A model generated the notes under the pieces. The model searched no databases. It had not been told where the DNA came from and worked only from the letters and a program-made list of their open reading frames with translations. Shown piece after piece: positions 1-61,640 of a stretch of DNA of 64,000 bases; position 1 is the stretch's first letter; every line of letters begins with the position of its first letter. The position numbers and the translations under genes were made by a program. The stretch comes from Marchantia polymorpha subsp. ruderalis (lineage: Eukaryota; Streptophyta; Marchantiopsida; Marchantiales; Marchantiaceae). The stretch spans positions 21,618,501 through 21,682,500 of the forward strand of contig AP031352.1 in NCBI GenBank assembly GCA_037833965.1. The letters run 5' to 3'.

Positions 1-524
1 AAGACCAACGGCACCCTTTGATATAGAGATAAAACTTTCACTTGTTACATTTGTTATATTTGTTTGACCTTTGGTATGCGGAAAGCTAATGGCATCCAAC
101 CTGGACGTCTAGATCCGGTTTTAGGAGAATCATTTGTGAGATTTCAATCTTGGGTCATTTGGTTTGTATTTTGGGTTTGTTGTCACTAAATACCACGTCT
201 TGAAACTCCTCCTACTCCTTCTACTTCACATAATTTCCGCAACAAACACTCGAGTCTCTATTAGTGAAATTTTGCCAAAAAACTTGCTAATTGAATGCTT
301 CAAACGATATTGTGTTTCGAGAGGTGTTCCTTTCGATCATTAATCACATCATGATCAAAACTCCCCCACAACTACATACGTGAACAAAATTTTTCACTTG
401 TCAATACAAAGAATCTGAGAAATCTTCCTCACTCTCAAGTAACAAGTCTCATTGAAAGACACACATCCATTGACATGAGCCTTACAATCTATGTTGTTCG
501 CGACGGATTGTCATCAATGACCAT
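1..524. other. Intergenic left flank
   Basis: No open frame of useful length and no recognisable domain is visible here. The sequence is AT-rich and ends where homology to the inverted transposon copy at 44.3-48.6 kb begins. Confidence 0.5.
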
Positions 525-3190
525 GCCTCTCTATATACGGCACATACGGAACTTTTGAGTCAAAGTTCCGTATTTTTTTTTCTTAAAGTTCCGTATAGGG
601 TTGAGTGACTTGACAATTACTCTCCGTGCGATCATATCTTCTTTGGATCCTTATGCTTGCTACCTAAACGGACACTGGTTTCAAGTCACGTGAATATTTG
701 CAGGTTACACTTTGATGCCACAAATTTGTGAGTGTTCTTATTGGAAGGTTGACTGAATGCCTGCTTTGGGTCTCTCTAACCTTGCCTAGAACATGTTTTT
801 ATGTCTTAGTTTCCATTTCTCTTCATTAACATTATTCTGAAAGTAATGTGACCTACTTACTGTAAAACCGTGGGTGATGACAATCGAGGTGCGTTAATCT
901 GTCCTTGATCATGCTCAATTTTTTTGAAGTGGACTCTTAGACAAAGATGTAGAGATATCGAGAACTTGAAGATGAGGTAGAGCTGAAAAGGATTCGGCTA
1001 AGGAAATGTTCCTCTTTGCTTTTGCAGATGCATTTCTGGAGGTCCTTGGTGAGGGTTTGGCAGCCCCTTTCACGACATGTGAGCACTAAAGTTCTACTCT
1101 GAACTTCACAGTTTTGGGTTTGTATTTTGCTAAGTAGTTTTTGACTTTTTTCCCAATCTTGATGGAGTCTATTGAACCTGCTTCTAAGCAACTCCGCAAA
1201 ACTCCATTTCAGCAAAAACATCTATTAGAGTATAGTCTCTGTATAGCAAGTCGTGATGCTAGAACTTCTGAAGTGGTGGCAGTTAGGTGTAGATTCTGTG
1301 TATGTTTCGGACGCGAAGAACTTGTTAAAAAATCCTCTACATCTTGGACATTTGAGAAGCCTCCTTTTAGGACAGACAACTACATGCAACATTTTTGCAT
1401 CAATCATCAAGTGAGGTGGAGGGAGTATCAGAAGCTTTCGACAAGAGATAAGTACAAATATTTTGCTGTTTCTATTAAACATGCTGAAACTATTTGTCAT
1501 TTCATGGAAAATCAGTCTGCCATGAGTACTTTTATAATCAGATGTTCAATTGTTGATGTGATTATAGGAGACATGCTCTAGAATGAAAATGATTTGTATG
1601 TTCAATCTCGAGCAAATGCAATGTCACTCTTTAAATTAACTGATGATGGGAATTACCGTATTTAAATTAGCCAGAAAAAACAGTTTGAGCTGGTAATTCG
1701 TTTTGTTGCACGAGGAATGTTATTCTCCATGGCAGTTGATGCAGTTCAAGATGCGAGAGAGGTCTGCGATATCCTTAAACTTGGATTTTGTAGCGAATCT
1801 CTGGTTGCTTCTTATGTAAGAACCGCATGAGCCAAATCTATTGAAAATATTGCTCAGATACTACACTCGGCCTTGACTTTTTCTGTAGCCTTTGATGCCT
1901 CTTGTGACCTACAAATAGTTTCTTGGATGGATGTTCGAATTCGGTTTTATCAAAATTCTTCTATTGAAAATCCGCACTTTATCACACTTACTTTTTCTGG
2001 TAGACATAGAGTATTGGCTATGTTTGAGATGTTTTGCAACTTGTTTGATGCAATTTGTCCCTTATGGAAAGACAAGCTAATTGGGTGTTCAACTGATGGT
2101 GCTACAAATATGATAACACATTTATCTGGAGTTGTGACATGTATTCAAGAAGTAGTTAGACCAAATTTCATTCGTGTATCGTGTTTGCTGCATCAGATAG
2201 ATATTGTGATGCAAAAGATATATAAAAATGCTGGCAGTGGATTTCAGAAGACTCTAACCTCACTGATTTCTGTTTTACGACGTCATAATATTTTGATAGA
2301 TGAAATGCAAGCTATTCGTCCAAGTCTATCTACTACTCGTTGGGCCTCTATGTCACGTGTATCTTGTTTTTTGATCAAAAGAAGATCTAAAATCATGGCT
2401 TTTTTTGAACAGAGTGATGTTTCTCAAAGAAATTGTGACATGCCTTCATTATCTTGGTGGATTATGGTTGCAATTGTAAGTGAGTTTTCAGGGCATGTAA
2501 GTCAGTGTGTGAAAGGTTTACAAGGAAGAAAAACTACTTTGCAACAACAAAAGTCAGTTCTTCAAGATCTGCTTACTAACTTACAGCGTTTTGCATGTGT
2601 ATGGCGAGTTGGGATTCAATTAAACTCATCCCTAGCGTTTGACATCGTAACCTTGGACATATGGGAAGTTAGTCATGCCAATCTGATTGGGTTAATCGAA
2701 GATCAAGGTCTGTTTCCTACCCAAGCATTGGCAGAGATGGACACATACTCAAAAAGTGAAGTGTTGCATGCAGTTGGCAACCTGTTTTTGGAAGCAGTTT
2801 GTAATTTGAGCAAGGTAGAAGCTACACGTGATGAGTTGAACCAATCAGCTTCTAGTATTTTGCCACCTTGCTTGCCTCAGGAACTGGTAGCTATGAAGAC
2901 ACGAGAAATTGTTCAGTTAGTTCTTAAATATCAAGAACGTCTCCAAGTTTCTCGGGAACAAGAGTTCATAGATAAAATAGTGGAAGAACACAAGGAGCTT
3001 CTAGTTTTTGTAAACAGAGAACATTGTCTTCGAAATGCTTTGAGTAGGTTGACTAAGCAGTCTAAAATTTGTGAAGCTTGGAGTACCCCAAATATTAGGA
3101 ACAGGTTTCCTCGACTTATAGAATTTGTAGGAGGATTAGCTTGTTCATTTCCTAATACTGCAACAGTAGAAAGTGATTTCTCAATTTAGC
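525..3190 (+). mobile_element. hAT-type DNA transposon, copy A (degenerate, 3' truncated)
   Basis: From about 525 to 3185 this sequence matches, in inverted orientation, the copy at 44345-48563. The shared block starts at the motif GCCTCTCTATATACGG. Just inside it lies a 10-bp inverted pair, TACGGAACTT at 545-554 and AAGTTCCGTA at 563-572, which copy B also carries with mismatches. Homology stops at the dimerisation motif near 3185, whereas copy B continues for about 100 more coding bases, so copy A is cut short at its 3' end. Terminal inverted repeats and a target-site duplication could not be defined. Confidence 0.7.
1162..3189 (+). pseudogene. hAT-like transposase, one frame with three in-frame stops
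   Basis: A single reading frame runs from the ATG at 1162 to 3189, about 675 codons, broken only by in-frame stops at 1579-1581 (TAG), 1663-1665 (TAA) and 1828-1830 (TGA). Near the N terminus a CxxC (CRFC) followed by Hx4H resembles a BED-type zinc finger. The middle part has FDASCD and GCSTDGATNM, the usual places of the first two acidic catalytic residues of hAT enzymes, followed by a CLLHQID block. The end reads FPNTATVESDFS, the hAT C-terminal dimerisation motif. At all three stop positions copy B still has a sense codon (Trp, Gln, Cys), so these are secondary mutations. Not functional as it stands. Confidence 0.75.
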
Positions 3191-37271: not shown

Positions 37272-37475
37272 TCAACGACACAGCGGAACGTTCACTCGGC
37301 GCTTAGAGAAATCAAGCAATTCTGGGGCGCCCAAAATTGGTTCCTTAAGTTCGCTATTAAGAAGGACTCCGACAATATAATTACAAAAGCTGTTCGGAAC
37401 CTTCGGCGCTTCTCTCGTGAACGCAAAGAAGTCTCCGTTGGACCAAGGAGGACTCGACCAGCGGGAGAGCCCTAG
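37272..37475 (+). pseudogene. Group II intron reverse transcriptase/maturase fragment
   Basis: The frame ending at the TAG at 37473-37475 contains RNVHSALREIKQFWG (starting at about 37284) followed closely by WFLKFAIKKDSDNI. This matches the adjoining motifs of group II intron-encoded proteins, RSxHxALxxIK...W and WFlxxDIKkcFDtI. The first catalytic Asp and the Phe of the second motif are replaced (AIKKDSD), and no other RT block is present. It is a fragment and would be inactive. RNA editing at the source could explain some changes but not the loss of the rest. Confidence 0.65.
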
Positions 37476-38019
37476 GGACTTTTGTTGTCATTTTCTGCCT
37501 GTAAAGCAGATACTTCACGGTCTTCGGTCCGAGAGGTCAGAAATGGCTTTATGATTTTCGCACACGAACCCTTACGGGGAGAACTCAAGCCCACAGGCTC
37601 ATGGATTTTGAAAAGGAAGAGTTGTGAGAGACACTTAAAGGAGTCAATCCAGCCACCCCAGCAACTATCTAGTCATGGTCATTTAATTAGGGACTTCTTA
37701 GGAACATTGTGTGGAGTCCCGGGTCCAAAGGAGACTTTTTTGCCTTTACGGGGCCTCTCCCTATAGTCGAGAGCTACGCATCTCTCCCCTCACCTATGGC
37801 ATTTTTTTCGTAAAGGCAAAGAAGTTTGCGGAAATGGCTTACACCTCTCCCGCGCACCAGTGCTTTAGGGAGAGGTGCTACGCACTTTGTGGGTCCGAAG
37901 GACGCTTAATCTATCGGGTCGAGCACTACGTGCGTATCGGGTCTTGCGCCCCCGGGACCTGCCGGGAGAGGGCGCGCAACTATCTCGAACCGATAGAGAA
38001 TTTGTTTTTTCGTCTCGGA

Positions 38020-38054
38020 GAGCCGTATGTGAGGAAATCTTGCACGTACGGTTC
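38020..38054 (+). ncRNA. Group II intron domain V (relic)
   Basis: GAGCCGTATG, then TGAGGAAATC, then TTGCACGTACGGTTC form the characteristic D5 hairpin: the lower stem pairs GAGCCGTA with TACGGTTC, the tip is a GAAA tetraloop, and the catalytic AGC triad is present. It is 35 nt against the usual 34, so one base may be extra. Outside an organelle it has no expected function. Confidence 0.75.
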
Positions 38055-38779
38055 GGAGGGATGCCACCCAAGCATAAAAATATTATTTTTTCCCTACGCA
38101 CCCCCTGCCCCTAGTCTTCGCACGACGTGCCTCTCGCTATGGGTCCGAAGGTGCGTAAGCACTTTCAGACCCATAGGGAGACTTCTTTGCCTTTGCCAAA
38201 GAAACGCCGAACGCCGAAATGTCTTGACGATTTCCGAGCACGAACACTAGAAGGAGAGAGCCGAAGGTCCCTAAGGTTCGGGTCTCGTGCCCTTTGGGCC
38301 CTGAAACTTCAAAGTTTATGCCCGCAGGCTCCTAGTGCTCGACAAAAGGGAGAAGGTCTCTGCTATCGGGCGGGTGGCCCACCCTCGTCACTAATGGCTC
38401 CTCAGAAAAGGGGGAACGCGAGCTCTGCCCGCCCGGGCCCTCATCCTGATGAAATCCCTTCACTTAAACGTTGGGTTTTCAGCCTTGAATTTTGATGCAT
38501 ATCCCAGAATGATTGTTCTGAATGATGAGGGTACAACAACTGTAGAATGGACAGGAATAAAGATCAGATTATGTTATTTTTATGCAGTTGGTAGCCTTGT
38601 TTAAACACGAGTGCAATTTTGAACACTGCATGTTCCAACCACATGCAGTGTTCAAGATGTGCTGGCGTCGGCTTTCCTCACCTGGCATTCGTAACACTCG
38701 ATGTGCACTCTTCGAGCGGCAGGCTCTTGAAGAGAAGAATACGGCTGTGCAAACCTCGAGGGTCAAGTGATTGGCATGT

Positions 38780-44184: not shown

Positions 44185-44344
44185 CATCAAGTCTCAAAAT
44201 CATGGAACCGGATTTGTAACTCCCGTCAAAGGACTCTATATATAGGGCGAATTCTTTATGTTCGTATCTCGTCAAAATAATCAACATTTTCAAAACAAAA
44301 TAAATAACACAGTTAACATGATATAAGTCTCATGTTTTTTTTAA

Positions 44345-47043
44345 TTAACTTTGAATTTGACAACAGTGTAATATAACTTCAAGAGAAATGTGAGTTATAT
44401 TGAATCTATGAATATATTTCTCCCATTGAGATATCATTTTCTACTGTTGCAATATTAGAAAATGGATAAGCTAATCTTCCTACAAATTCCATAAGTCGAG
44501 TACATCTATTCCTAATATTTGGAGTACTCCAAACTTCACAAAAATCAAACTACTCAGTCAACCTACTCAAAGCATTTCGAAGACGATGTTCTCTGTTTAC
44601 AAAAACCAGAAGCTCCTTGTGTTCTTTTACTATTTTATCTATGTCCTCTTGTTCCCGAGAAACTTGAAGACGATCTTGATATTTAAGAACTAACTGAACA
44701 ATTTCTCGTGTCTTCATAGCTACCAGTTCTTGAGGCAAGCAAGGTGGCAAAATACTAGAAGCTGCCTGGTTCAACTCATCACGTGTAGCTTCTACCTTGC
44801 TCAAATCACAAACTGCTTCTAAAAACAGGTTGCCAACTGCATGCAACACTTCACTTTTTTAGTCTTTGTCCATCTCTGCCCATGCTTGGGTAGCAAATAA
44901 TCCTTGATCTTCGATTAACCCAATCAGATTGCCATGACTAACTTCCCATATGTCCAAGGTTACGATGTCAAATGCTGGGGATGAGTTTAATTCAATCCCA
45001 ACTCGCTCTACACATTCAAAACGCTGTAAGTTAGTAAGCAGATCTTGAACAACCGACTTTTGTTGTTGCAAAGTAGTTCTTCTTCCTTGTAAACCTTCCA
45101 CACACTTGCTTACATGCCCTGAAATCTCACTTACAACTGCAACCATAATCCACCAAGATAATGAAGTCATGTCACGAATTCTTTGAGAAACATCACTCTG
45201 TTCAAAAAAAGCCATGATTTCAGATCTTCTTTTGACCAAAAAACGAGATACACGTGACATAGAGGCCCAACGAGTAGTAGATAAATTTGGACAAATAGCT
45301 TGCATTTCATTTATCAAAATTTTTTGACGTCGTAAAACAGAAATCAGTGAGGTTAGAATCTTCTAAAATCCACAGCCATCATTTTTATATATCTTTTGTA
45401 TCACAATATCTATCTGATGCAGCAAACACCATACACGAATGAAATTTGATCTAACTATTTCCTGAATACGTGTCACAACTCCAGATAAATGTCTCGTCAT
45501 ATTTTGTAGCATCATCAGTTGAACACCTTCGACCCCGTTAAACTACCATCAACCTTCCCAGAAAGCTAATGACCCTTCGGGCCTTAGGGTGGAAGAGACC
45601 GCACGGGATAGCCAGGCTTGGCTACACCCCCGTGGAGACTACGCTTCTAGTGAGAATAAATACATAGCACTTTTTTTTTTTGACAGGGCTGTTGATGCCT
45701 AAGGGCCGCTTCTCCTTTTTGCCGGGCTTTGTACGGGTAAGCCTGGCCAATCCCGTAGATTGGCAAAGACTCCACCATAGGAGACGTCGCAGCCCCACGG
45801 GCCCAAGGTTCGGGTCGAGCATACGTGCCTCTCTCTTTGGTCGAGAGCTAAAGCCCCAAAAATGACAGTAGATTTCCGGGCACGAAGACTATAATCCCCC
45901 CATTCAAAAATCCAACGCGTTTTTTTATTATAAATAATGAAAAGTCACTACTAAAATTATTTATTAGTAGTGACGTACTCAGGCACTAAGTATTCTCTTT
46001 GCTCCATTTTATTAAAACAGTGTTCTCTGGGTCTGTGTAAAGTTTACCTGTCTGACAATGCCCGGCCAGCGGTAAAATTTTGAATGAAATTACTAGTATA
46101 TCCACTTTTCTTAGAACACCCAATTAGCTTGTCTTTCCATAAGGAACAAACTGCATCAAACAACTTGCAAAACATCTCAAACATAGCCAATCCTATATGT
46201 CCAACAGAAAAAGGAAGTGTGATAAGGTGCAGATTTTCAATAGAAGAATTTTGATAAAACCGAATTTGAACATCTATCCAAGAAACTCCCTGTAGGTCAC
46301 AAGAGTCATCAAAGACTACAAAAAAAAGTCCAGGCCGAGTGCAGTATCTGAGCAATATTTTCAATAGATATGGCGCATGCGGTTCTAACATAAGAAGCAA
46401 CCAGAGGTTCGCTATAAAATCTAAGTTTAGGAATATCACAAACCTCTTTTGCATCTTGAACTGCGTCAGCAGCCATTGAGAAGTACATTCCTCGTGCAAC
46501 AAAACGAATTACCAGCTCAAACTGTTTTTTTTGGCTAATTTGAATACAGTAATTTCCATCATCAGTTAGTTTAAAGAGTGACATTGCATTTGTTTGAGAT
46601 TGACCATACAAATCATTTTCATTCCAGAGCATGTCTCCTATAATCACATCGACAATTGAACATCTGATTATATAAGTACTCATGGCAGACTGATTTTCCA
46701 TGAAATGACAAATAGTTTCAGCATGTTTAATAGAAACAGCAAAATCTTTGTACTTATCTTCTGTCGAAAGCTTCTGATACTCCCTCCACCTCACCTGATG
46801 ATTGATGCAAAGATGCTGCATGTAGTTGTCTGTGCTGAAAAGAGGCCTCTCAAATGTACAAGATGTAGAGGATTTTTTAACAAGTTCTTTGCGTCCGAAA
46901 CATACACAGACTCTACACCTTACTGCCACCACTTCAGAAGTTTTAGCATCACGACTTGCTATACAGAGACCATACTCTAATAGATGTTTTTGATGGAATG
47001 GAGTTTTGCGGAATCGCTTAGAAGCAAGTTCAATAAACTCCAT
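44345..47043 (-). pseudogene. hAT-like transposase, interrupted by an insertion, a frameshift and stops
   Basis: The N-terminal part is intact from the ATG at 47043 for about 240 codons, with the zinc-finger CRVC...Hx4H and without the three stops of copy A. The frame shifts near 46310 (before VVFDDSCDL, the first catalytic block). It is then split after KLIGC by the 45528-46113 insertion and resumes as TDDATKYDE... in the complement of 45527 downward. Later breaks are a TAG after DGCGF (near 45364), a TAA after MDKD (near 44858) and a TAG after RLTE (near 44550). Past the dimerisation motif the sequence continues QWEKYIHRFNITHISLEVIL to a TAA at 44347-44345, a tail that copy A lacks. Confidence 0.75.
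45528..46113. other. 586-bp organelle-like insertion inside hAT copy B
   Basis: Flanked by a 7-bp direct repeat, GAACACC (45521-45527 and 46114-46120), at a point where copy A is continuous. Its left part (45528-45900) is GC-rich with words found in the 37-38 kb insertion (GGTTCGGGTCGAGCA, GGTCGAGAGCTA, ATTTCCGGGCACGAA). Its right part is AT-rich with an inverted pair, GTCACTACTAAAA and TATTAGTAGTGAC, near 45942-45974. No coding region was recognised. An organellar origin is inferred from the shared words. Confidence 0.6.
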
Positions 47044-47589
47044 CAAGATTGGGAAAAAAGTCCAAAACTACTTAGCAAAATACAAATCCAAAAATGAGAA
47101 GTTTAGAGTAGAACTTTAGTGCTCACATGTCGTGAAAGGGGCTGCCAAACCCTCACCAAGGACCTCCAGAAATGCATCTGCAAAAGAAAAGAGTAACATT
47201 TGCAAGTTCATTGCAAGTAACATTTCTTCAAGTTCTCTATATTTCTACATCTTTGTCTAAGAGTCCACTTCAAAAAATTTGAGCATGACCAAGGGCAGAT
47301 TAACACAACTCGATTGTCATCACCCACAGTTTTACAGTAAGTAGGTCACATTACTTTCAGAATAATGTTAATGAAGAGAAATGGGAACTAAGACATAAAA
47401 ACATGTTCTAGGCAAGGTTAGAGAGACCCAAAGCAAGCATTCAGTCAACCTTCCAATAAGAACACTCACAAATTTGTGGCATCAAAGTGTAACTTGCAGA
47501 TATTCACGTGACTAGAAACCAGTGTCCGTTCAGGTAACAAGCATAAAGATTCAAAAAAGATTTGATCGCGCGAAGAGTAATTGTCAAGT

Positions 47590-48485
47590 CACTCAAGCAA
47601 TTGAAAAAGAGATGTAACAGCATATTACATACAGATCCTTAGAATGTCCAGAGCGTGGTCTTGCTCTAAAAGACTATCGTATCAGTGACGTATCACATAC
47701 AACCTTAGCTACTCCAATGAAAACAGAAACCAAAATCTTACTCAAGAGATAGTCCGCTTTGCTCTTCTTCCAATACGCCTATACGGATGACTTCGCCTGC
47801 CTGAGAAACTTGCTGCAGTAGCAACAATCGGCTCTCAAACCCGGAATGCCACAACATAACTTTTCTACGCCGCTCTCTACACCGGAATATGACGCTTGAC
47901 TTTTGAACCACCGCACAAGAGACGTGGACGTTGTTATAAGCAGGGGAGAAGGATTCCCCTCTCGTTTTCCTGGCATGGAAAAACTCTGAGGCTATCGCGC
48001 GATCCCGGGTTCATCTTATCTCGCTCTGAATCGTCAAAGAAGCGATGCATTTGCTGGATCATTTGTAGCATCTACGCCACGACTCGGCCTAGCTTTGGTA
48101 CCTTGCTTGAGACATCCATAGCGACCATCTGTAAAGAAACCTAAGCCTAAAAAGCAATTTATCTGTCATGCGCTATATTTGAACAAACCTTTTGAGTAAG
48201 TATCGTGTATAGCAAAACCTCAATTTTTTGAGAAGAATGGAAAAGCTTTTCATCGGATCGGACACTGCTTCATACGTGCTCGAATTTTCTCTCTCTCGAC
48301 CTTTGGACACCTTGGACCTGCACAAAGAGATACACATTGGACCTGCACGAAGAGATGGATTAGAACTGATTTCGCGAAGAGTGTGTGTGGGAAGGTTCTT
48401 GAGGCAAATAATGTTTGAAACGGTACCCGCAGTTTAAGTTTGTTAGTAGATAATAGCGCCTCCAAAGTGAACGAAGTCATTTATG
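47590..48485. other. Segment of about 0.9 kb in hAT copy B that copy A lacks
   Basis: Copy A passes directly from TTCCGTATAGGGTTGA to GTGACTTGACAATT (around 590-616). In copy B the matching points lie near 48500 and 47590. The extra DNA holds no recognised gene. It is either a nested insertion in B or a deletion in A. Confidence 0.55.
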
Positions 48486-48563
48486 GTCCAAATACGGAAT
48501 TTTAAGAAAACGAAATACGAAACTTTGACTCAAAAGTTCCATATGTGCCGTATATAGAGAGGC

Positions 48564-50600
48564 CTGCCCATGTATCATAATATTCTAAGTATTAATTAGA
48601 TTTGATGGGAAGTCTGATCATGAAAAAAATTAGCATTATATCTAGATACTAGTAATATCATCTAAAATTATTTAGAAAAAACAAAAACATTATTTTCATT
48701 AAAATGATAGATATTTTAAATAAGTAAATATAATCGGTGTATTTTTATAATTAAGATTTCTTATTTTTCATTGGAAAATTTATATATAAGAAAAAAAAAA
48801 CTCTTTCAAATACTCATCAAAATATAAAGTGAAACATAACAATTCAAAACAATATAATGTGAAAGCGACAAGAAGACTGATTCTCTGGTAATGTTTACAT
48901 CTGGATAACTTTGCTATTGCTCACATGCCTAACTAATCACAAGAGTGTGATACATTGTGAAAGTCTATAACTTGTAAGATGAAAATGGACTGTATACACC
49001 GCTCGTATTTTAAATCTTGGTTGCGTCCATTTAAATAATATCATATTGTTGTGTACACTTGCAGTTTCCTCACAAAAATTTTTGCACATCATGATTAGAT
49101 ACAACGAAAAACCTATATACTCTTTTGTCAAGTTTGCAAAAGTTTAATCAATATTACAACGGTGGCTACTTAAAATAAAAGAGAAAAGTGACGACTAGGG
49201 TTACACCCGTTTTTGCTACGGCCACACCCGTTTTTGCTATGGCCAGGCCCGCCTAGTCATTTCTGGAGCCCGATGGTGGACGATGACGTCACCCCTTGTA
49301 ACAGGAGGGGGACTTGAATATGGATAGCCGAGCTCTCATCCGAGGAAAGATTTCTCGGCCGATTTTGTATTCCCATGACCCTCTCGGTGTTCCATCTTCG
49401 TTTCCTGACACTAATGGCCCTAGCAAATAATGGTGTGCCCTAGTCCTCCCCAAAGAGAAAACACCTCCCTTTTTGCACACTTCCGGGTATCTTACGCGTA
49501 TCCGAATTGTCGTGTGGAGAGGGTGTACTTACGAGAGTTCTTCCTTTAAACATGGCAGAAGAGCACCTCCCGCTCAATGATGACGGGTTTTGACTGTCGG
49601 CCTTTGGATACGCTACGTATGGGGCTCACGTATAACTCCTACACAATTTATATATGTACGTATCATAACTGGCACATATCGCAACTACGATGACGTTCTC
49701 GTAGACCTCTTCCCCACTGCCCTCCTCTGCCCTCACCTCCCCTCCAAGCTATCCCAGAAACCGACACGTCATCAACCCATCTGAGGTTCCACGCCGATAA
49801 TAATAAATTCTCAGGCACACTGGAAGGAATGGACAAAACCTTCCCGAGAGCGATCTCCGGTTCGGAATAAGACAGAACCGATGCACATGACAGCGCTCCT
49901 CTGACCGTTCGGGATTCAAAGTTGTCGAGAAAAAGGACGAACAGGACGTTGCGCACTTGATACATGGGGAAGAAATCTGACGCCGTGCAGCGCGCACTTG
50001 ATACATCGGGAAGAAATCTGACGCCGTGCAGCGCGACGGAGGGCGACGAAGGAAATCTGACGCCCTTCGTCGCGCCGCACGTCGTCGGGAAAAGCGCAGG
50101 CAGGCAGGGCACATGCCCGGCCTTCTGAAATGTTCGTATGATGCTCCCGCTTCCTTTCCTCCATCCCCGTCGGCCGACGACTGCCACTCGGTGACCGTCG
50201 GATTATAACATGCGCCGGACCTTCGACATGAATATTCGCCCGAATATGCTCGTCGCTTCTCTTGCAGAGAGCGGCCTTTGGTCAGTGTACTTCGAGATTA
50301 CTCGCCGACATCGCAGAAGCCGATTCCGGCTTTACTCGATGTCAATTAAGGAAATTTCGTTTAAGCGACACTCACCGGACGTCGAAGGACCAGGCGGCTA
50401 GTTAGATTGGATTTGCCAATTTTCACATTCCCCGCTCAGCAAGATATATTTGGGAATTGCTGCAAATTCGGGAAAATTTACAAAGATTTTTCTTCCAATT
50501 CGGTTCCCTTTCGCGTACGATTCACGAGGGGGTGAGTGCATCGACAAGCTCAAAGATCGCGCATCGGGATGTTCAATCCGGCGTTCGTGAGGAAGGAAAA
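48564..50600. other. Intergenic DNA, 5' half AT-rich, 3' half GC-richer
   Basis: 48570-49150 is AT-rich. At about 49198-49240 the phrase CACCCGTTTTTGCTA(C/T)GGCCA occurs twice in a row. From 49600 the sequence is GC-richer with overlapping frames on the minus strand but no known domain. Confidence 0.4.
49951..50033. repeat. Two-unit tandem repeat, period 41 bp
   Basis: Units start at 49951 and 49992 with GCGCACTTGATACAT and continue GGGAAGAAATCTGACGCCGT. A third, partial unit (GAAATCTGACGCC) follows at about 50050. The period is not a multiple of three, so it would shift any reading frame across it. Confidence 0.85.
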
Positions 50601-51000: not shown

Positions 51001-51207
51001 CTTCTTACAGATTATAATATGCTTACACTATCGGCCAATCCAACCGCCGACCTGCTACAGAGGGATGATGCGGCGGAGGTCCGGCAAACCGCTTCGATCC
51101 TCGATCCATCCTGGAGCCTTTCCCCTGCGTCATTTCACGGTCCCATACACAAACCGAAACAAGCTGCTGAGGTGAGAATTTTACTCTCAATGCCTCAAAA
51201 ATCTGCT

Positions 51208-52805
51208 TCAAGGAGCCGCGCACTCGGTGAAGTTCGTGGCCAACATCGGGTATCTCGTAAAATCCGTGCAGTAGTCGTAGATCATGTAATTGGACCGTAC
51301 CCACTCGAGCTTCCTGAGCTCCACTGCGTTCAGCTCATCGTGAGTGCTCCACCAAGTGTCGGAGTAGAAGGGCGAGACGCAGTCCGGGGATGGATCCACG
51401 CCGTTGTACACGCATCCGTTCATCTTGAAGTCCTTGTAGTGAGCCAGAAACGGAGCGTTGGTCCAGTTCACCTTGTCGAGTCCTCCTCTCGTGGCCCAAT
51501 CGTCCCCGTTCCAGATGCTGGAGAATACGTACATGGGCCTCACTTTGGGGTAGAAGCTCTGAGATTGAGGAGTGTTCCTTAGAACCCTGATGGGTACGGA
51601 ATCCACGTAAAATCTGCACATTGCATCGAATTCGGTTTCAGAACTCTTGAAAAAATGCCAAGGATCGTCCGTGCTAACAGACGAAATTGGCGTTCCCTTC
51701 TACCGAAAGAAAGAACGATCAGCTTTACCTGTGAAGAGGTCCTCCTATGGGGACCTGAAGAAGCTCCGTGTCGAGGGTAGGATTGAAGTACTTACACGAC
51801 TTGGTTGTGGTTCCAGAGGACGGTGTAGGTGTGGAACTTCTCGGCCGGGTCGAACCAGAGGAAGATCCTCTCCTCGCGTCCGCCGTTCCCGTTGGCGTAA
51901 ATGTTCGTCTGCAAGATGACCGGCTCCCCGGACTTGTTCCCGAGGAACTCGAAATCGAATTCGTCGTGGTTCTCAGTCATTGTGTGCAGCTGTCGGCACA
52001 GATACACAAGTTAGAATTGCAACATTATCCGTGTTTGCTCGAAAGCAGCAACCGACGGCGGTGGGGACGGCCATCATCGAGCGGGCGTATCTCGTGCCCT
52101 CGTGCCCGTGGGATGAGGCCCTTGACACGGCGGGCGATGGTGACAAGACGCTAGTTGCCGAATGGCACTCAGACTGGGAGACGCGAGGACAGGAAAACTC
52201 ACATAGAAGCAAACGACGACTCCAGCAGCGTCACCGGGAACCAATTTCAATTTCATGCTCAGTTGCCCGAACAGGTAAGTGTCCTTCGACTGGAATCCCG
52301 AACCTGAAGGAGCCAACAGCGACAGTGAGGCATCTCCGGCGTCAAACAGGGGACAGCATGCAATCTCGCAAGCTGAAGGGAGGATCACCCGAGCATCGGG
52401 AAAAGGTCCTTCCACAGACAAGCAGCGTCACATGCCAAGGCTGATCCATTATAAAGCTGTTCCTAGAAACGCAATGTGCGCCACGTCCCGCAGCCTCGGA
52501 AGAGCGACGGACGATCTCCGAGACCCCGGACGAGAAGCGGACGGGGGGCTTCCATCGCCGCTGACAGTGGGGGGGCTGGCCTGAGAGTTACCTGTCAGTT
52601 CGGTCATGGACAGGCTCACGGCGCGACCGTCCATGGATCGCTCAATCTGATTATCAGCCCCGTACAGGACGTTGAACGATTGATCGAAGGTGCTGGTGTC
52701 GAGAGTGTTGGTGGACTGCGCGCGGGCAGAGGCCGTGAGAGCGGCCACCACCATCAGTACCAGAGTCCACATTGCGCTCGCGCTCGTCCGCTGCGAGCGA
52801 GCCAT
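51208..52805 (-). CDS. XTH: Xyloglucan endotransglucosylase/hydrolase, copy 1 (four exons)
   Basis: Secreted GH16 enzyme that cuts and re-joins xyloglucan in the cell wall. Exons: 52805-52592, 52303-52203, 51989-51796, 51613-51208. The introns are GT-AG, the coding length is 915 nt, and the product has 304 residues, normal for the family. An N-terminal signal peptide ends near ASARAQ. The catalytic motif reads [11 protein letters not shown] (the family standard is HDEIDFEFLGN) with both Glu residues kept, followed at once by the usual N-glycosylation site NKS. The C-terminal XET_C region has the four expected cysteines (GCVYNG...PDC, YDYCTD, TECAAP). A possible in-frame upstream initiation region exists, but 52805 is chosen because it gives a typical signal peptide. 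Exons 3 and 4 are nearly identical to copy 2. Confidence 0.9.
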
Positions 52806-59496: not shown

Positions 59497-59760
59497 CCCC
59501 GCATCTATTTTTCTGAAAGACTATATATGCTTACACTATCGGTCAATCCAACCGCAGCTTCTCAATAATCGAAACAGCCTATAAATAAATCTGCACGGTC
59601 TATCCCTAGACTGCTGCAGAAGGATACAGCGCTCGTCCATTAAAACTGCTTATATCCTCTACGGATGAGTCTTTACCGCCATCCCCTGCATTATTTCAGT
59701 CCCAGAAAGAAACCAAGACAACGTGATGAGGTCACAATTCCAAACCCTCAAAAATTTGCT

Positions 59761-61640
59761 TCAAGGAGCCGCACACTCGGTGAAGTTCGTAGCCAACATC
59801 GGGTATCTCGTAAAATCTGTACAGTAGTCGTAGATCATGTAATTCGACCGCACCCACTCGAGCTTCCTGAGCTCCACTGCGTTCAGCTCATCGTGAGTGC
59901 TCCACCAAGTGGTGGAGTAGAAGGGGGAAACGCAGTCCGGGGCTGGATCCACGCCGTTGTACACGCATCCGTTCATCTTGAAGTCCTTGTAGTGAGCCAG
60001 AAACGGAGCGTTGGTCCAGTTCACCTTGTCGAGTCCTCCTCTCGTGGCCCAGTCGTCCCCGTTCCAGATGCTGGAGAATACGTACATGGGCCTCACTTTG
60101 GGGTAGAAGCTCTGAGATTGAGGAGTGTTCCTCAGAACCCTGATGGGCACAGAGTCGACGTAAAATCTGCAAGTTCCATTGCACTCACTTTCAGACACTA
60201 TTGCCGCATCGCACATGTTCACGGACAGATGCCACAACATGGCCTGCGGCTATGTGATGTCTGGGGGTAGTAATGCAGTCGATCCATTTTGAAGCATCTG
60301 TACACCTCATGCCAGAATATCAATTGAGACCATGAGGGTCTCGAGAGGGAACAAATGTTCAAGGGTGGAGCACTTACACGACTTGGTTGTGGTTCCAGAG
60401 GACGGTGTAGGTGTGGAACTTCTCGGCCGGGTCGAACCAGAGGAAGATCCTCTCCTCGCGTCCGCCGTTCCCGTTGGCGTAAATGTTCGTCTGCAGGATG
60501 ACCGGCTCCCCGGACTTGTTCCCGAGGAACTCGAAATCGAATTCGTCGTGGTTCTCAGTCATCGTGTGCAGCTGTTAGAGACACAGAGACAAGTTCAAGC
60601 TGCAGCATTGGCTACTTTTGCTGCTGAGCAGCGACCGAGACAAAGATCGACATCGCCATTTTCCTACAGAAAGGTATCTTCATCACCGTATGTGGATCCG
60701 TTTTACTAGACTCGCCAGACCCTAGATACAAAAACAGACTACGAATGCTTGAGCAGTCGAGCACAGAAAGGCACGCCTGAGGGAAGCTGAAGTTGAGGCA
60801 TTCAAACGCGGGATATGAGCAAATGGGACAACTCACATAGAAGCAGACAACGACTCCTGCAGCGTCGCCGGGGACCAATTTCAATTTCATGCTAAGTTGT
60901 CCAAACAAGTAAGTGTCCTTCGACTGGAAACCAGAACCTGCAAGGGAACAGCCCCAGTGAGTCAGTGAGTCTGAGTCAGTTGGAGGCATATCCGCCGTGA
61001 AACAGGGGATGGCATGCCGACTCGTCAGCTGGGGGCCCGAAGACAACAGGATCGCCAAAGCATAAGACCACTAGCCGCCTTAGAACACATTCCACTTGTG
61101 AAAAGAGCCCGATAACACAGAAAGCAAATCCTTGACAAATTTCATTCTAGAGAAGGTAGGCCGTAGGAAGCAGAAGGCGATGAGAGAATGCACACTTCAC
61201 CCATCCTAGAGAGAAGAGCAGTGCACGCCCTTCCCACGGCCTTCGCACAGCAAAGACTTGCACGTTTGTGATGATGATTTCCATCAAAAGCTCGGAAGCT
61301 AACGGCGGAGATGCCCAAATACACAACCCGAGAAGTACAAAAGTGTAGGATAAGTGAAATTTGTGACAACTACATCAAGAGAGAGTGAAGGTGCGAAGAT
61401 GACCATTCCTGCTCCTCGGTTTGAGTGAACGTTACCTGTCAGTTCGGTCATGGACAGGCTCACAGCGCGGCCGTCCATCGATCGCTCTATCTGATTATCA
61501 GCCCCGTACAGGACATTGAAGGCCTCATCGAAGGTAGTGGTGTCGAGAGTGTTGGTGGACTGCGCGTAGGCAGAGGCTGTGAGAGCGGCGAACATCAGAC
61601 CCAAAATCCACATAGCGCTCATCTGCTGCGGGCGAGCCAT
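59761..61640 (-). CDS. XTH: Xyloglucan endotransglucosylase/hydrolase, copy 2 (four exons)
   Basis: Same enzyme type and exon plan as copy 1: exons 61640-61436, 60937-60837, 60571-60378, 60166-59761, GT-AG introns, 906 coding nt, 301 residues. The signal peptide ([11 protein letters not shown]...ASAYAQ) is three residues shorter than in copy 1 and differs in sequence. The mature part keeps [13 protein letters not shown] and all C-terminal cysteines. The last exon encodes only a few changed residues (for example PAPDC for PSPDC, YSTTWW for YSDTWW). Introns 1 and 2 are longer than those of copy 1 and do not align by eye. The gene is intact and probably expressed. Tandem XTH pairs are common in plants. 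Confidence 0.9.

Follow-up and report, generated by a model that had tools for sequence, protein, structure and literature searches.

The window, by which we mean the whole stretch of 64,000 nucleotides of Marchantia polymorpha subsp. ruderalis analysed here, lies on contig C3 of a nine-contig, 241-Mb assembly and carries two copies of a hAT-like element. Copy A (522..3187, plus strand) is incomplete at one end and, aligned to copy B, provides an uninterrupted reference. Copy B (44229..48566, minus strand) was delimited by alignment to relatives, its low end being approximate and its terminus mutated, and it is interrupted by an insert of 586 bp (45528-46113). The two copies align at 92% on either side of the insertion site, where the alignment of copy B to copy A breaks off after the word GAACACC (45521..45527) and picks up again at a second GAACACC (46114..46120), while in copy A this word is present once and the sequence reads through.

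In a search of the assembly with a 401-base query from copy A, 40 of 54 candidates were scored and 40 matches obtained, two of which are the halves of copy B. The remaining 38, namely copy A itself (L060) and 37 others, were each read across the site, and the insert is absent from all of them; the most that any empty-site copy carries within 12 bases of GAACACC is two extra bases (one in L080, two in L093). The word GAACACC is exact in 21 of the 38, and the rest, mostly older copies, differ from it by substitution or small indel. Because every one of these copies reads without the insert, the interruption in copy B is the derived state. No host bases are missing at the insertion, and the insert is flanked by nuclear sequence, lying within a repeat element of a contig of 32.6 Mb, which is the location expected of a NUMT. 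The earlier note on this DNA had read 586 bp between two copies of GAACACC to the base against copy A, and both the alignment of the two copies and the empty sites agree with that reading.

hAT elements are marked by CAGG-type ends with 8-bp target duplications, and it is by such ends that the host can be recognized. Seven relatives were fetched with long flanks, and in the five that have both ends in reach the element starts CAGG...TCTCTATAT and finishes with an inverted copy. Exact 8-bp target duplications accompany L098, L102 and L104, and also L101, where the duplication lies behind a mutated terminus; that of L103 is 8-9 bp long. Relatives of the host thus combine terminal inverted repeats of the CAGG...CCTG type with 8-bp duplications, and copy B's own target duplication, which was looked for, is not recognisable. 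The proposal that the insertion interrupts a hAT transposase gene holds as far as the ends and duplications go and finds no backing in profile searches: no hAT model matched the host, Pfam gave only weak, unrelated matches below cut-off or none, and the host protein had no match in NCBIfam or PDB. Two copies of the family, L061:739-2886 and L065:516-2663, each contain a 716-residue open frame, for which no Pfam model matched at E up to 1; an AlphaFold prediction of this frame (mean pLDDT 32.2, pTM 0.24) was of no use for a fold search. Judged from sequence, the host is hAT-like by its ends rather than by profile. Six relatives resemble L098 at 97-99% over long segments, an indication that the family has recently been active. 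Copy B itself is decayed and, besides the insert, has three in-frame stops and a frame shift with respect to the frame of copy A.

In order to describe the insert we searched the assembly with a 600-base stretch containing it; 40 of 44 candidates were scored, and the 42 matches consist of the stretch itself and 41 partial matches that repeatedly end near offsets 146, 213, 347 and 454. None of these 41 extends 5 bp or more across even one of the four internal joins, compared with an average of 17 of 41 matches crossing random four-position sets, of which 0 in 20000 went uncrossed. As the join positions were picked from the same matches that were then counted, the sequence shared by other loci beyond the joins weighs more than this count: all four internal joins are overrun, on at least one side, by sequence that loci on other contigs have in common. 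Read from these flanks, the insert turns out to be a five-piece mosaic (142, 69, 135, 107 and 137 bp, overlaps counted twice) and not one organelle stretch.

Piece 1 (45525..45666, plus strand) matches L002 at 97.9% identity; in L002, L045 and L028 it runs on as CTTGATTCATATTATCAAATGG, from which L042 departs by one base. Piece 2 (45665..45733), organelle-like DNA with relatives at L021, L040 and L059, has the fewest witnesses, and its flanks are loosely shared. Piece 3 (45733..45867), likewise organelle-like, has a left extension common to L018, L030, L032 and L044, being preceded by GCATTTCAGCAGCC in L018, L030 and L044 and by the same sequence with one base different in L032; its right edge, which rests on two degraded copies with differing flanks (L041 and L043), is uncertain. 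Piece 4 (45868..45974) is organelle-like, AT-rich DNA with an inverted repeat and has neighbours common to L005, L006, L017, L019 and L035: ACTCCATGGGG lies beyond its right edge in L005, L006, L017 and L019, and a recognisably shared left extension is present in L006, L017, L019 and L035. Piece 5 (45974..46110), also organelle-like, extends to the left in L003, L008 and L025 and to the right in L003, L025 and L026. Several of the loci found for the pieces duplicate one another as members of nuclear repeats (L004/L022/L027, L031/L035, L042/L046, L034/L036/L037 and perhaps L006/L019), so independent witnesses are fewer than loci. Among the loci fetched, none holds relatives of two different pieces. 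By the flanks at other loci, then, the insert comprises five pieces meeting at four joins, where a complex NUMT is defined by at least two organelle fragments that are not neighbours. A NUMT made of a single piece was rejected on the strength of these joins, at which matches stop and shared flanks begin, and with five pieces a search for one full-length organellar match should fail even though the DNA is organellar.

The assignment to an organelle is clearest for piece 1. In L002 this piece lies within an open frame running TVMNFHGSKPST...DYASSENKYILDSYYQMVGNCIPLAKIPIGTWVHNIE, which runs on into MVGNCIPLAKIPIGTWVHNIE and whose end matches Ribosomal_L2_C (PF03947) at E=6.4e-5, below the curated cut-off, as well as bacterial and mitochondrial uL2 chains in PDB. 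A long insertion before MVGNC is typical of plant mitochondrial rpl2, and from the translated frame piece 1 is internal coding sequence of a mitochondrial-type rpl2 (uL2m). For two further pieces the mitochondrial derivation is indirect, via one locus each: an SSU rRNA fragment lies 182 bases further on from the relative of piece 3 in L018, and an intronless tRNA-Leu(UAA) lies about 530 bases from the relative of piece 5 in L025, both of which look mitochondrial and are assumed to be contiguous with the relatives of the pieces. The organellar assignment by genes thus extends to pieces 1, 3 and 5 of the five. The suggestion of an organelle-like insert is therefore upheld by the rpl2 sequence of piece 1, with the amendment that there are five pieces rather than one stretch.

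The COX1 family gave nine short matches in the assembly, four of them over cut-off and seven of the nine with stops, and the best covers 63 of 436 positions, although introns in cox1 would also shorten such matches. This suggests that they are scattered nuclear copies and that none of the nine contigs is the mitochondrial genome. Nothing exceeded the Pfam cut-off in ten frames from L002, L003, L006, L018, L026 and L045; the best match besides rpl2 was GIY-YIG (E=0.058, below cut-off), near piece 5, and the frame at L003:1336-1512 that shows this weak resemblance overlaps the left part of the piece 5 relative. Rfam miRNA matches in L021 and L006 fell below the gathering score and were taken as chance. 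The SSU rRNA fragment at L018:1253-1598 is of organelle type, and L018 may itself be a complex insertion. At L004, L022 and L027 (G000 C5, C3 and C3), a diverged mitochondrial rpl2 piece occupies the same place in three copies of a nuclear repeat and seems to be a mitochondrial scrap copied along with that repeat. A common origin of this scrap and piece 1 was considered, both starting near ACC, but was rejected, as L002 is 97.9% identical to piece 1 compared with 90.6% for L004.

Elsewhere in the window, positions 37386-38439 form a separate block of about 1 kb in which the group II intron family RF00029 matches 38018-38106. Its first part, 37386-38384, matches L010 at 93%, and the block abuts a repeat family at 38440, the right-hand repeat beginning at the join. 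The words that the insert was said to share with this block do exist (six shared 11-mers compared with at most four in 120 other stretches), but the resemblance is weak and comes down to a few short motifs of 20-24 bp, and on that account a link between the two was set aside. Four pairs of direct repeats run in matching order through the intervals 51188-52753 and 59741-61597; the members of a pair are 89-98% alike and lie at a distance of 8.5-8.8 kb.

The joins of the insert can be read base by base. The last three bases of the left GAACACC, ACC, are common to the host and the beginning of piece 1; pieces 1 and 2 meet at a TA microhomology, pieces 2 and 3 at an A, and pieces 3 and 4 without a shared base. 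Pieces 4 and 5 meet at a C, which is the base in L025 and L008 (L003 has G). Piece 5 is followed by TTA (46111..46113) and then by the right-hand GAACACC. Neither does this TTA follow CTTTTC in L003, L025 and L026, nor is it present before GAACACC in the empty sites read; it is either filler or may be what is left of piece 5 after a small deletion. The series of 3, 2, 1, 0 and 1 bp of microhomology followed by a 3-nt filler shows the blunt or short-microhomology joining of complex NUMTs. Because ACC belongs to both host and piece 1, the host duplication measures 4 to 7 bp (GAAC to GAACACC). Vaughn and Bennetzen (2014) reportedly described duplications that arise when offset breaks are filled in.

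Taken together, the mosaic, the joins and the duplicated host bases point to a complex NUMT of a known kind, in which a staggered break was filled in and several short mitochondrial fragments were captured by end joining, a reading to which we give a probability of roughly 0.85. A double-strand break with staggered ends would have occurred in an old, decayed hAT-like copy, and fill-in of overhangs of 4-7 nt would have generated the two copies of GAACACC. Into the gap between them, five short organelle fragments, mitochondrial where they can be assigned, would have been end-joined with 0-3 bp of microhomology and the 3-nt filler. We observe the anatomy of the joins, and we infer the enzymes, the joining order and the timing. 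Staggered-break repair with 7 bp filled in, one of two routes put forward in the earlier note, survives as the best explanation in its mechanism, while the ambiguous ACC widens the 7 bp to 4 to 7 bp. The insert shows no sign of function or of mobility of its own.

It is improbable that the pieces had been joined beforehand, on a minor or rearranged mitochondrial molecule from which a single fragment of 586 bp reached the nucleus. The four joins occur in no other match, though every piece has several other copies, and in the other loci pieces 4 and 5 are bordered by different shared sequence on both sides, as pieces 1 and 3 are on one side. What speaks for such a history is that plant mtDNA recombines and that a single fragment requires fewer coincident events, and the insert itself holds nothing to tell pre-joining from joining at the break. 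An assembly artefact, in which organelle reads were misbuilt into the hAT copy, would agree with the near identity that the insert appears to have with the inferred organelle sequence, but microhomology joins, an exactly duplicated host site and as many as five pieces, each about 70-140 bp long, would be a surprising product of such misassembly, which we regard as very unlikely. Least credible is the other route of the earlier note, in which the insert would itself be, or have travelled in, a transposable element making 7-8 bp duplications, for despite the neat short duplication and the near-identical members of the host family, the many nuclear copies with identical termini that it predicts reduce to a single full-length copy in 241 Mb (40 of 44 candidates scored), the pieces are found elsewhere singly and with differing edges, there is no terminal inverted repeat (the 40-nt ends, one inverted, share a 5-nt word at longest), and the duplication of 4-7 bp differs from the 8 bp of this hAT-like family.

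We counted private changes in the insert at the 408 positions where all other covering loci agree and found none, whereas the hAT flanks of copy B differ at 77 of 1905 unanimous positions (43 of 1016 on the left and 34 of 889 on the right). At the flank rate 16 changes would be expected in the insert, and the probability of none is 5e-8. The insert thus looks far younger than the host copy, on a comparison that uses nuclear copies in place of the actual mitochondrial sequence. Three positions (45804, 45856 and 45861) are possible private changes outside the 408, as the other loci differ from each other there and the letter of the window is absent from all of them; at seven further insert positions the window lacks the commonest letter (ties included), yet its letter is found in at least one locus. 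When the same test was applied to eleven other copies out of 39 loci, seven had 2 to 9 private changes, three had one and L021 had none. These counts point to a young complex NUMT, which may still be segregating.

Insertions of this general kind are described in plants. According to the available text of PMC6215612 (Portugez, Martin and Hazkani-Covo 2018), complex NUMTs and numins of plants unite several organelle fragments from different places per insertion by blunt or microhomology joins, and their signatures are best kept in recent insertions. The present insert resembles them in its several organelle fragments and in its joins; it differs in that the outer joins and the empty site are readable, host bases are duplicated, the pieces measure only about 70-140 bp and a plastid piece is not shown. 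Simple break-captured NUMTs share with it microhomology of 1-7 bp and an absence of host deletion, the latter in more than half of primate cases (PMC2820518, as far as its accessible text goes), and PMC7037861, in its accessible part, reviews mixtures of organelle segments united by end joining; relative to the simple NUMTs of these two sources, there are here five pieces instead of one, plus a short target duplication. Duplications of short stretches of host bases from offset breaks, with fill-in and end joining, are described in the portions available of PMC7407515 and PMC8355091; in those cases the duplication itself is generally the principal event, whereas here organelle DNA separates its two copies. 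The present insert combines a complex organelle insertion with an offset-break duplication. In the text available of PMC6215612, PMC2820518 and PMC7037861, host duplications are not described, and the partly accessible literature that was searched gave no matching description of numts with target duplications, which is a statement about that search and not a claim of absence from the literature. Among the matches listed in the literature search, no title concerned numts of Marchantia. The accessible parts of other sources report retrotransposons inside a numt (PMC4632043), mention microhomology with added nucleotides (PMC515365) and put forward both end joining and microhomology-mediated joining as possible routes of organelle DNA in plants (PMC12181080).

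The insert is thus ordinary in kind and well resolved, and not a new kind of element. The joins of many organelle insertions are hard to read because the insertions are old or come without an empty site, while here the host duplication, the microhomology and the filler can be read together because the repeat family offers empty sites by the dozen and the insert has hardly mutated. This provides one clean data point on the repair of staggered breaks with organelle DNA in a plant. A fuller version of events, in which one staggered break drew in five fragments of degraded mtDNA of about 70-140 bp and was sealed without host loss recently enough for the insertion to segregate, is tentative, and we rate its chances at clearly below even. 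If it is true, the 38 or more empty sites that can be read would make this hAT-like family a trap in which captures of organelle DNA in this plant could be dated and counted.
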